A stretch of DNA of 64,000 nucleotides from Rubrivivax sp. GTDB lineage: Bacteria; Pseudomonadota; Gammaproteobacteria; Burkholderiales; Burkholderiaceae_C. The stretch lies in assembly GCA_030653505.1 (NCBI GenBank), contig JAURZK010000113.1:1-64000 (forward strand), given 5' to 3'. The stretch's first letter is position 1; each line of letters begins with the position of its first letter. A model generated the notes under the pieces. The model was not told the DNA's origin, did not search any database, and was given only the letters and a program-made list of their open reading frames with translations. The translations under genes were made by a program, and so were the position numbers. Positions 13,894 to 64,000 of this stretch are shown piece by piece.

Positions 13894-14586
13894 GGCGTCC
13901 TCGACGGTGCAGGCCGGCGTTACGGTGACGGCGCCTACGCCGGCAGCGGCCAGGCGGTCCTGCGCCAGCCCTTGCAGGTCGGCCAACCAGCGCGTCGAGC
14001 CGTCGGGCCGCTCGCGGCGGACGAAGCGCGGCATCTCGGCACGGCGGTCCTGGCCGAAGGCGCGCAGCACGTCGGCGCCGACCTCGAACTGCCGCGGCCC
14101 GATGCAGGGGCCGAGCCAGGCCTGCACATCGGCAGGCCGTGCGCCGGCGCCGCGGCACAGTGCGTCGACGGTGGCTTCCAGCACACCCGCTGCCAGGCCA
14201 CGCCAACCGGCGTGCGCTGCCGCCACGGCACGGCCGTCGTTCAGCGCGAACAGCACCGGCAGGCAGTCGGCCACCTGCACCGTGCAGGCCAGGCCGGGTT
14301 CGTCGGTCCAGGCCGCGTCGGCCGGGTCATCGGTCGCGACGCCATCCTCCGCGGTCAGGTGCAGCACGTTGACGCCGTGCACCTGGCGCAACCACACCGG
14401 GCGTGCGCCCAGCGCGGCGCCAAAACGCGCACGGTTCTCGACCACCGTCTCGGCGTCGTCGCCGACCGCCACACCGAGGTTCAGGCTGGCGTAGATGCCT
14501 TCGCTGACGCCGCCCTCGCGCAGGCTCATCGCGGCGCCGACGCCGGGGGGCGTTACCCAGGCCGGGCGCAGCAGTGGCAGGCTCAT
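13825..14586 (-). CDS. pgeF: peptidoglycan editing factor / polyphenol oxidase (laccase-domain, YfiH family)
   Basis: WLRQVHGVNVLHL, DCLPVLFAL..AHAGWRGLAAGV, WLGPCIGPRQFEVG motifs. Confidence 0.93.
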   Translation of the reverse strand: MSLPLLRPAWVTPPGVGAAMSLREGGVSEGIYASLNLGVAVGDDAETVVENRARFGAALGARPVWLRQVHGVNVLHLTAEDGVATDDPADAAWTDEPGLACTVQVADCLPVLFALNDGRAVAAAHAGWRGLAAGVLEATVDALCRGAGARPADVQAWLGPCIGPRQFEVGADVLRAFGQDRRAEMPRFVRRERPDGSTRWLADLQGLAQDRLAAAGVGAVTVTPACTVEDASAFFSFRRDGVTGRMAAAIWRL

Positions 14587-14599
14587 CCGGCGGCCCCGT

Positions 14600-15232
14600 T
14601 CATTCGAAGTCCGGACAGTGTTCGGGCCGCGTGCGCTCGAAGGCTGGCAGCCGCATGCAGGTCTCGAACACGCGCATCACGTTCGGCACATGATCGACCC
14701 GGCATGCGAAGCGCTGCGCATTGAAGATCTGCGGCACCAGGACACAGTCGGCCAGCGTGGGCGACTCGCCGTGACAGTAAGTCGTGGGGGCGGCGGCGAG
14801 GTGCCGCTCCACCACCTCCAGGCCGGTCTCGACCCAGTGGCGGTACCAGCGGTCCTTGTCCTCGTCGACGATCTTCATCTCGCGCTTCAGGTAGCGCAGC
14901 ACACGCAGGTTGTTCAGCGGGTGGATCTCGCAGGCGATGTCCAGCGCGAGCGCGCGCACACGCGCCCGTTCGGCCGGCGTGGCCGGTAGCAGCGGCGGCT
15001 GCGGGTGGGTCTCGTCGAGGTACTCGATGATCGCCAGCGACTGCGTCAGCGTGTGCCCGTCGTCGCGCAGCAGCGGCACCAGCCGCGCCGCCGACACCGC
15101 GGCGTAGGACTCGCCCAGCTGCGCGCCCTGCGCCAGGTGCACGGGCTCGTAGTCGTAATCCAGGCCCTTGAGCGCCAGCGCGATGCGCACGCGGTAGGAC
15201 GCCGACGAGCGGAAGTAGTTGTAGAGCTCCAT
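14600..15232 (-). CDS. maiA: maleylacetoacetate isomerase
   Basis: GST-fold zeta-class: LYNYFRSSASYRVRIALALKGLDY. Confidence 0.93.
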   Translation of the reverse strand: MELYNYFRSSASYRVRIALALKGLDYDYEPVHLAQGAQLGESYAAVSAARLVPLLRDDGHTLTQSLAIIEYLDETHPQPPLLPATPAERARVRALALDIACEIHPLNNLRVLRYLKREMKIVDEDKDRWYRHWVETGLEVVERHLAAAPTTYCHGESPTLADCVLVPQIFNAQRFACRVDHVPNVMRVFETCMRLPAFERTRPEHCPDFE

Positions 15233-61545: not shown

Positions 61546-63261
61546 TCAGGGCGCTGCCACCGCGTCATTTGGGTGTCGATGATGCCAGTAACGCCTGGCA
61601 ACATCGCGCGCGCACAGGCCCGGCGCAGGCGCCTTGGTGTCGGCGGGCGCCCGCCCCATTGCCGGCGAGGACCACGCGCCGCAGCGGTCGCTGCGCACGA
61701 CGGTGATGCCGCGGTCGGCATAACGCGCCAGCACGGGCGGCGCCGGATGGCCGAAGCGGCTGCGGTAGGCCGCCTGCACGACGGCCACGCCGGGCTGCAC
61801 GGCGTCGAGGAAGGCGGCGGTGGACGAGGTCTTGCTGCCGTGGTGAGGTACCAGCAGCACGTCGCTGCGAAGCATGCCGGCATCACGCCGCAGCAACGCG
61901 GTCTCCTGCGCCGCCTCGATGTCGCCGGTGAGCAGCGCGCTGGCGCCATCGGCCGCCTGCACACGCAGCACGCAGCTCAGCGCGTTGGGCTTGTGCGGCA
62001 GCGCCGGGTCCTGCGTGGTGGGGTGTAGCAGCTCGAAGGCCACGCCGTCCCAATGCCAGCGCTGGCCCGCGACGCAGGGGACGTGCGGCAGGCCGCGCTG
62101 CGTCGCTGCCTGCCGCAAGGGGTGGTCCTCGGCCAGTGAACTGGAAAGTGCCGCCACCGGCATGCCGGCGAGCAGCGTCGCGGCACCGCCGACGTGGTCG
62201 CTGTCGCGGTGGCTGAGCATCAGCAGGTCGACCCGTGTCTCGCCGCGCACCCGCAGCAAAGGCAGCAGCACACGTCCGCCGGCGTCGGCCTCGGGCGTGT
62301 AGGCCGGGCCCGTGTCGTAGACGAGCAGGTGGCGCCGGGTGCGCACCAGCACCGCCGTGCCCTGGCCGACATCGGCAGCGACCAGTTCGAACTGCCCCTG
62401 CGGCGGGCGCTCGACCGGTGGCGCGAGCAAGGGCAGCGCCAGCGGCAGGGTCATCAGGCGCATTCGCCACGGCAGCGGCAGCACCGCCAGCGCACCGGCC
62501 ACCAGGCCGCAGGCCACGGCCCAGGGTGGCGCGGCCGCGGCCGACCACAGCGCCAGCGGCAGGCCGGCCAGCGCCTGCAGCACAAGCGTGAGGCCCTGCA
62601 CCAGCACGGCAGACACGTTCCACAGTGGCGGCAGCAGCACGCCCAGCATGGCCAGCGGCACGACGAGCAGGGTGACCAGCGGTATCGCCAGCAGGTTGGC
62701 GACGAAGCCGACGATCGAGATCTGCTGGAAGAAGACCAGCGTCAGCGGCGCCAGCCCGACGGTGGCCACGGCCTGGGTGCGCAGGCCGTCGCGCAGCGCC
62801 TGCGCCGCACGCGCGCGCCAGCGGGTCGCCGCGGGCGCCAGCCGCTGCGCCGGCTCGGCCGCCACCAGCAACGCCACGGCGACGAAGGACAGCCAGAAGC
62901 CCGGCTGCAGCATCGCCCAGGGGTCGCCCACCGTGACCGCCAGCGCGGCGGACAGCAGCACGGCCGGCAGCGGCCAGCGCAGCCCCGCGCTGCGCAGTGC
63001 CACGACGACGGCGATCATGCCCACCGTGCGCTGCGCCGGCACACCCCAGCCCGCCAGCAGCGCGTAGCCTGCGGCCGACAGCAGCCCGCCCCAGCGCGCC
63101 GCCTGCGGTGCGGGCAGCAGCAGCGGCAGCCGCCGGTGGCGGCGCCACAGCCAGCCGACGATGCCCCCGGCCAGCCAGGCGAACATGGTGACGTGCAGGC
63201 CCGAGATGCTCATCAGGTGCGAAACGCCCGTGATGCGGAAGAGCTCCCAGCCAGCGCGGTC
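61546..63261 (-). pseudogene. comEC: ComEC/Rec2 competence protein, N-terminally truncated
   Basis: DRAGWELFRITGVSHLMSISGLHVTMFAWLAG competence domain plus C-terminal metallo-beta-lactamase-like domain (LLMLSHRDSDHVGG, LLVPHHGSKTSS); frame hits TAG at 63265-63267 and N-terminal part is missing. Confidence 0.85.
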
Positions 63262-63266
63262 TGGCT

Positions 63267-63563
63267 ACTGACAAACAGGTCCTACTCTCGGACAAATGGT
63301 TCTACTCTGGGCATTTCTCGACAATGGGTTCTACGCTAGCGGCCCAGGTATCGCCCGAATTCTTGACAAAGGGTTCTACCGTCCCAGCAGGCCACGGCCC
63401 CTCGAGTTGCGACGTCCTGCGCGCCGCTAACCGCAAAACCTCGCAAGCTCCCCAAGCGCTTCTGCCTCAACCTCCGCCAACCCTCGTAAACCAGAAACTT
63501 CAGGCGTTCTTGACAAATGGTTTGACCGCAAGTTGTACTGCTTGACAAATGGTTCTACTCTCA
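63267..63563 (+). repeat. six degenerate ~21-bp direct repeats, consensus cTTGACAAATGGTTCTACTCTc
   Basis: Copies at 63267, 63288, 63317, 63362, 63509, 63541, all in the same orientation. Confidence 0.85.
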
Positions 63564-63987
63564 CCGGCCGCACCCGCCCAGACGACTTTGCGACCGGTGG
63601 ATGCCCCGTATCGGGCGGACGTAGTGCTGCTTCCGGGCGCACTCGAAGACTGTGCAAAACGCGAGTGGCTTGCCTAGTCCGCAACGGCGGAAAAAGGCTG
63701 CCAAACTTTTCACGCCAGACGCAGCGCAATGTTCGCAGCCAGTAGCGCAACATCCGCACCCTCGGCTAGAGTGGCACTCGTCGCGTCGGCCCAGCCGGCG
63801 CGTCGCCAACCGGCAAGGGCCTTGCCCCAACGCCACCAGCGAACTTGAGCGCCGAACAGCGCGCCTCAGTTCTCCATCCGGACTCGTTCTGAGTCACGGA
63901 AACCCCGGAAAAGCCTGACACCCGAAGTCCATCTTCGACTTCCCGCCTTCAGCTGTCTGCTTCCAGCGCTCAGCGTTCGAACCAGCC

Positions 63988-64000
63988 GTTCTTTAACAAC
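63988..64000 (+). promoter_or_regulatory. candidate rrn boxA antitermination motif
   Basis: GTTCTTTAACAAC at the window end; core TCTTTAACA identical to the boxA core. Confidence 0.4.

Follow-up and report, generated by a model that had tools for sequence, protein, structure and literature searches.

An array of short repeats beside a split comEC gene in Rubrivivax sp. is very probably the end of a Tn7-like transposon

Six short repeats lying next to a truncated comEC gene in a draft genome of Rubrivivax sp. (G000) very probably (we put it at about 0.92) form the tnsA-side end of a Tn7-like cut-and-paste transposon of ~60 kb or more inserted in comEC. The gene set, catalytic residues, both ends, insertion point, orientation, 4-bp duplication and the target in nine elements could all be read from the DNA. 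Judged by sequence comparison, the element is one of a group whose members have repeatedly entered comEC at one exact place; the gene appears to be a preferred landing site of this family.

The repeat array and the split comEC gene

The window analyzed, a stretch of 64,000 nucleotides, comprises bases 1-64000 of contig C34 (116,540 bp) from an assembly of 200 contigs and 4.56 Mb with 4.6% contamination. Its relevant features are as follows.

61546..63261, minus strand: comEC 3' portion (C-terminal ~570 aa); ComEC_Rec2 TIGR00361, E 1.4e-80
63258..63261, no strand: target duplication, copy 1; GGTC on the plus strand, GACC on the comEC strand
63262..64000, plus strand: start of the element, which runs on beyond the window to at least position 116439 of C34 and ends on contig C64 at 14983
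63262..63269, plus strand: element terminus, consisting of the 8-bp TGGCTACT that precedes the first GACAA; aligned with the termini of eight other elements
63270..63288, plus strand: TnsB-binding-type site 1 (1 bp longer form)
63291..63310, plus strand: TnsB-binding-type site 2
63320..63339, plus strand: TnsB-binding-type site 3
63365..63384, plus strand: TnsB-binding-type site 4
63512..63531, plus strand: TnsB-binding-type site 5, the most degenerate (score 20.6)
63544..63563, plus strand: TnsB-binding-type site 6, distal; G095, G241, G400 and G593 likewise have sites 244-316 bp in from the terminus

The comEC breakpoint proposed in the preliminary description is real: the reading frame, open leftwards from 63261, measures 555-572 aa, against ~800-1100 aa in most genus mates, and the single match to the Competence domain (PF03772) in the whole genome is this truncated gene, cut by the element directly 5' of its WELFRITGVSHLMSISGLH codons. 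The 5' portion of comEC is found on contig C64 at 14223-14982, directly before the element end at 14983, and a query consisting of the N-terminal portion of ComEC from a relative matched there at 14232-14993. On C64, comEC reads up to GCCATAGACC, followed by TGGGTATGGCCAAACAGGTTCTACTC, a site of the same type reading inward; the second copy of the target duplication adjoins this opposite terminus. On C34, the gene picks up again with GACCGCGCTGGCTGG, and removal of one GACC restores the comEC frame VIGDQAAIDRAGWELFRITG, matching 25 intact relatives. We infer that C34 and C64 carry one and the same element, as their ends match, they share the duplication and the genome has a single comEC. The number of contigs, the level of contamination and the fact that both pieces of the element stop at contig ends might suggest that the break in comEC is an assembly chimera; however, GACC is present at both junctions, which can be joined in frame into a normal comEC, and the same junction occurs in eight independent genomes, making such an artefact extremely improbable. 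Two genus mates also have shorter comEC frames: that of G007 (565 aa) starts to match at query residue 14, and that of G025 (520 aa; L028), which sits at a contig end, at query residue 46.

All six GACAA-core repeats are present in a single orientation between 63270 and 63563 and are not a chance occurrence; the outermost exceeds the inner ones by 1 bp (CAAACAGGT versus CAAATGGT). The first had been described as beginning within a few bases of the junction, which holds insofar as it lies 8 bp from the terminus; the terminus itself is at 63262 rather than 63267. With at most one mismatch, GACAAWNRGTTCTAC occurs five times in the 4.56-Mb genome, four times in the array and once on C64, where the fifth match lies, in the inverted orientation expected of a transposon, at the other end of this element. 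The 20-bp repeat form (at most three mismatches) is matched within G000 by the array alone and is absent in 36 genus mates; the array showed no match to plasmid DNA, nor did any exact 20-mer of it in a scan of a genome contigs database. A motif near 63968, GTTCTTTAACAA, resembles an rRNA antiterminator boxA and would suit a region upstream of rrn, or an array with a regulatory or iteron-like role, without any link to transposition. Against this, no rRNA lies downstream (Rfam search empty), the repeats mark both insertion ends, and the array, sought beside intact comEC in relatives as the observation that would speak for a regulatory role, is missing from those loci and from the 36 genus mates; a regulatory origin of the repeats is scarcely credible.

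Transposition genes

The array shares its contig with Tn7-type tnsA, tnsB and tnsC genes and a broken tniQ, separated from the end of the window by ~50 kb of further genes.

C34 111329-112177: tnsA, 282 aa; TnsA matches Tn7 TnsA (1f1z), E 1.3e-39
C34 112110-114551: tnsB; TnsB matches Tn7 TnsB (7pik), E 1.3e-61
C34 114562-116256: tnsC; TnsC matches Tn7 TnsC, E 1.3e-58
C34 from ~116244: tniQ, broken after ~60 codons, with a repeat at the contig end

The DDE transposase looked for to the right of the array is thus TnsB, whose catalytic D, D and E align with those of Tn7 TnsB; likewise, the catalytic D and K of TnsA align with those of Tn7 TnsA (1f1z). The C34 and C64 parts give the G000 element a size of at least 53.3 + 6.5 kb. 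Repeated transposase sites at the ends are also a property of the IS21, Tn5053/Tn402 and Mu-like families, and TnsB contains a Mu-transpos_C domain, both of which would fit an element of one of these other types. Adjoining TnsB, however, are a homologue of the TnsA endonuclease and a TnsC of Tn7 type, and the Tn7 proteins are the closest solved relatives of the Tns proteins of the element, so that a non-Tn7 identity is very unlikely. Tn5053/Tn402 and IS21 were rejected in particular as they are defined without TnsA and with a resolvase or istB partner, and TnsA is present here. Among the families that the preliminary description had left side by side, the tnsABC-tniQ gene set, with its TnsA, thus retains the Tn7-like one and removes IS21, Tn5053 and Mu. 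We note that a search with rve (PF00665) missed the TnsB of the element and matched other contigs. No cas effector genes, which would mark a CRISPR-associated transposon, were found among the proteins scanned with PADLOC, the G000 element being known in two incomplete pieces.

Inside tniQ, contig C34 breaks off in a repeat, probably an insertion sequence, that is found at the ends of contigs C65 and C35 as well; an Rfam search for a group II intron at the end of C34 was empty. Since tniQ is broken by this repeat, the G000 copy is probably unable to home by itself now. In relatives with an intact gene, TniQ measures 390-443 aa, and that of G061 matches PF06527 (E 2e-20) and, just below the curated cut-off, a TnsD domain (E 1e-7). 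Upstream of tnsA, on the opposite strand, lies a gene for a DUF6471 protein (L009 10855-11397), which adjoins tnsA also in G061, G241, G095 and G275 and whose product is a candidate regulator of transposition. Elsewhere in G000, a second TniQ (540-aa frame) lies on contig C192 (11875-14459) beside a frame of 640 aa that matches rve weakly; this locus is a putative further Tn7/Tn5053-like element.

Recurrent insertion in relatives

Homologous elements were identified in eight other genomes (G061, G241, G095, G275, G400, G593, G666 and G764), all of them splitting comEC in the orientation seen in G000 and at the same codon, to within 2 bp, with TnsB identities among comEC-inserted elements down to 31%. 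The one close relative to emerge from the scan of genome contigs (TnsB 66%) is the 38.6-kb element of G061, a Burkholderiales MAG, in which comEC is split at the same point and tniQ is complete. Both junctions were read in G241, G095, G275, G400 and G593 and one in G666 and G764; the tnsA-side end, where seen, always abuts the 3' half of comEC, and the tniQ-side end the 5' half. Complete elements in the relatives measure 21.8-49.0 kb. At a cut-off of E <= 1e-60, and counting the query genome each time, TnsB homologues are carried by 6 of 399 genomes of the order and 8 of 401 of the family. The most distant homologues, those of G799, G467 and G790, lie outside comEC as judged from the 80 kb fetched around each, and their TniQ proteins share ~27% identity over part of their length; a further homologue, in G304, is on a very short contig and stands outside the comEC tally.

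The DNA of comEC is conserved on both sides of the insertion (GVLAA..GDQ upstream, DWELFR downstream), a pattern that favors neither side as the one read by TniQ. Rather than by selector-directed homing, comEC could have been hit as a general hot spot or have kept one old insertion by descent. Some of the elements could have an ancestral insertion in common. A TnsC tree, in which outgroups sit on very long branches, gave no supported separation between comEC-targeting elements and others. On the other hand, the elements occur in different families of the order, the duplicated 4-mers differ, the boundaries differ by as much as 2 bp and TnsB homologues are as scarce as the above counts indicate, all of which renders a hot spot or simple descent unlikely and favors homing.

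Element ends and target duplication

The terminus at 63262..63269 is the positional equivalent of the Tn7 right end, upstream of tnsA. All 16 termini that could be read start with TGG or TGA, giving TG...CA termini; these and a target duplication (4 bp, GACC), both of which had been listed as signs of a transposon, are present in G000. On the tnsA side, sites recur at ~12, 32, 61 and 107 from the terminus (base 1), in addition to a distal group at ~244-316 (~285), and on the tniQ side three sites lie at ~12, 70-89 and 116-134; G275 has fewer recognizable sites and G764 only one. The expectation from shuffled sequence is at most 0.05 sites, against the recurring positions observed. The site sequence varies from element to element (GGTTCTACTCT, CTCGTGAACT, AAGTTGCGCT, GTTCTGTTCT) and the positions are kept, as would be predicted if TnsB and its sites co-evolve, and the repeats are best viewed as putative TnsB-binding sites. 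The ends of Tn7 have a four-site/three-site asymmetry, which those of the comEC elements resemble; to our knowledge, a distal group at ~244-316 bp is unusual.

An exact 4-bp duplication flanks five of seven elements (G000, GACC; G061, GCGG; G275, GCAC; G400, CAGG; G593, GATT), three of four bases agree in G241 and G095 has none; removal of 4 bp restores the comEC frame in six of the seven. A duplication of 5 bp is described as characteristic of Tn7 and all of its relatives (PMC11406308), and the terminal T of the tnsA-side end could accordingly lie outside the element, with AGACC in G000 and AGCGG in G061 matching over 5 bp. These two are the only elements that allow such a reading: G275, G400 and G593 match over exactly 4 bp and differ at the fifth base, and under it the two ends would not both begin with TG. 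A 5-bp duplication is therefore rather unlikely, and we retain the 4-bp one. As the comEC elements have 4 bp where the Tn7 group has 5, we regard the G000 element as a variant with homologous machinery and not as a typical Tn7-like member. The 4-bp stagger, as read from these junctions, would set the comEC elements apart from the rest of the Tn7 group in a way that can be related to the sequence of TnsB.

Relation to known elements and proposed mechanism

The comEC element shares with Tn7 the homology of TnsA, TnsB and TnsC over most of their length, a TniQ/TnsD selector, several TnsB sites per end with fewer on the end away from tnsA, a single orientation relative to the target gene and TG...CA termini. 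It differs from Tn7 in the 4-bp instead of 5-bp duplication, in the extra distal sites ~244-316 bp from the tnsA-side end, in the placement of cargo between that end and tnsA, and in its position within a target that it disrupts, whereas Tn7 inserts downstream of glmS by means of TnsD; in addition, no tnsE was noticed among its genes in the comEC element. Tn7-like elements are usually described as users of safe sites; a known exception is comM (PMC10293859, PMC11406308, PMC11472951). Like the G000 element, the Tn7-like Tn6022/AbaR elements interrupt a gene of natural transformation, in their case comM (PMC10293859, PMC11406308), which they target through TniQ plus TnsF/Orf3; the G000 insertion is in comEC rather than a comM insertion with TnsF. 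In G764, the distance from tniQ to the end of the element is 1.5 kb, which could hardly accommodate another selector gene. Other mobile DNA is known from comEC, namely prophage 1207.3 and its relatives in Streptococcus (PMC12587576), which are phage-type and unrelated in hosts and machinery, and the mefA island of pneumococcal comEC (PMC4774983). Among the openly readable main texts covered by our search, we found none that describes a Tn7-like element with its attachment site in comEC; it may have been reported before.

In the mechanism that we propose, TnsB would bind the repeats and join the TG...CA termini to the target, TnsA would cut the 5' ends to make the process cut-and-paste, and TnsC would bridge to the target selector. 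TniQ, which is TnsD-like, is likely to be the comEC selector and most likely reads the conserved comEC DNA, which would fix both the codon and the orientation of insertion, with a 4-bp stagger; a TniQ of more than 400 aa has been taken as suggesting direct target selection (PMC10293859). A protein-guided selector with a new target would thereby be added, and a second transformation gene, encoding the uptake channel, would join comM as a recurrent attachment site. Insertion in comEC presumably abolishes DNA uptake, perhaps to the benefit of the element. It has been argued that mobile elements profit from blocking transformation (PMC4774983), an idea that the recurrent comEC insertions support and for which they offer a naturally replicated test system.

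Cargo and predicted defence genes

Somewhat more tentatively, we favor the broader view that G000 exemplifies a widespread Burkholderiales group of Tn7-like elements that combine TniQ homing to comEC and 4-bp duplications with defence islands while switching host DNA uptake off; if so, phage attack would be blocked, and the element would also be shielded from being removed through transformation.

A complete type I Zorya system (ZorA1, B1, C1 and D1; PADLOC E from 1e-95 to 0) is carried as cargo at positions 68331-76735 of C34. Homologous Zorya genes are carried by the comEC elements of three relatives, with identities of 77-87% in G061 and of 29-43% in G241 and G666. A helicase/methylase cluster at 80018-93127 of the same contig encodes large DruE-, DpdE/DrmD- and DrmMI-like proteins (Druantia/DISARM-like) and, together with a 1991-aa DEAD/MZB helicase at the opposite element end (L057 5201-11176), possibly represents a new composite defence system. 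A CBASS-like pair was noted at L008 15387-18187: a CD-NTase-type cyclase of 467 aa and, after it, a predicted membrane protein of 302 aa. A survey of 6,549 Tn7-like elements listed Zorya in three only (PMC8649781); the Pfam model used in that survey does not recognize the ZorA of G000.
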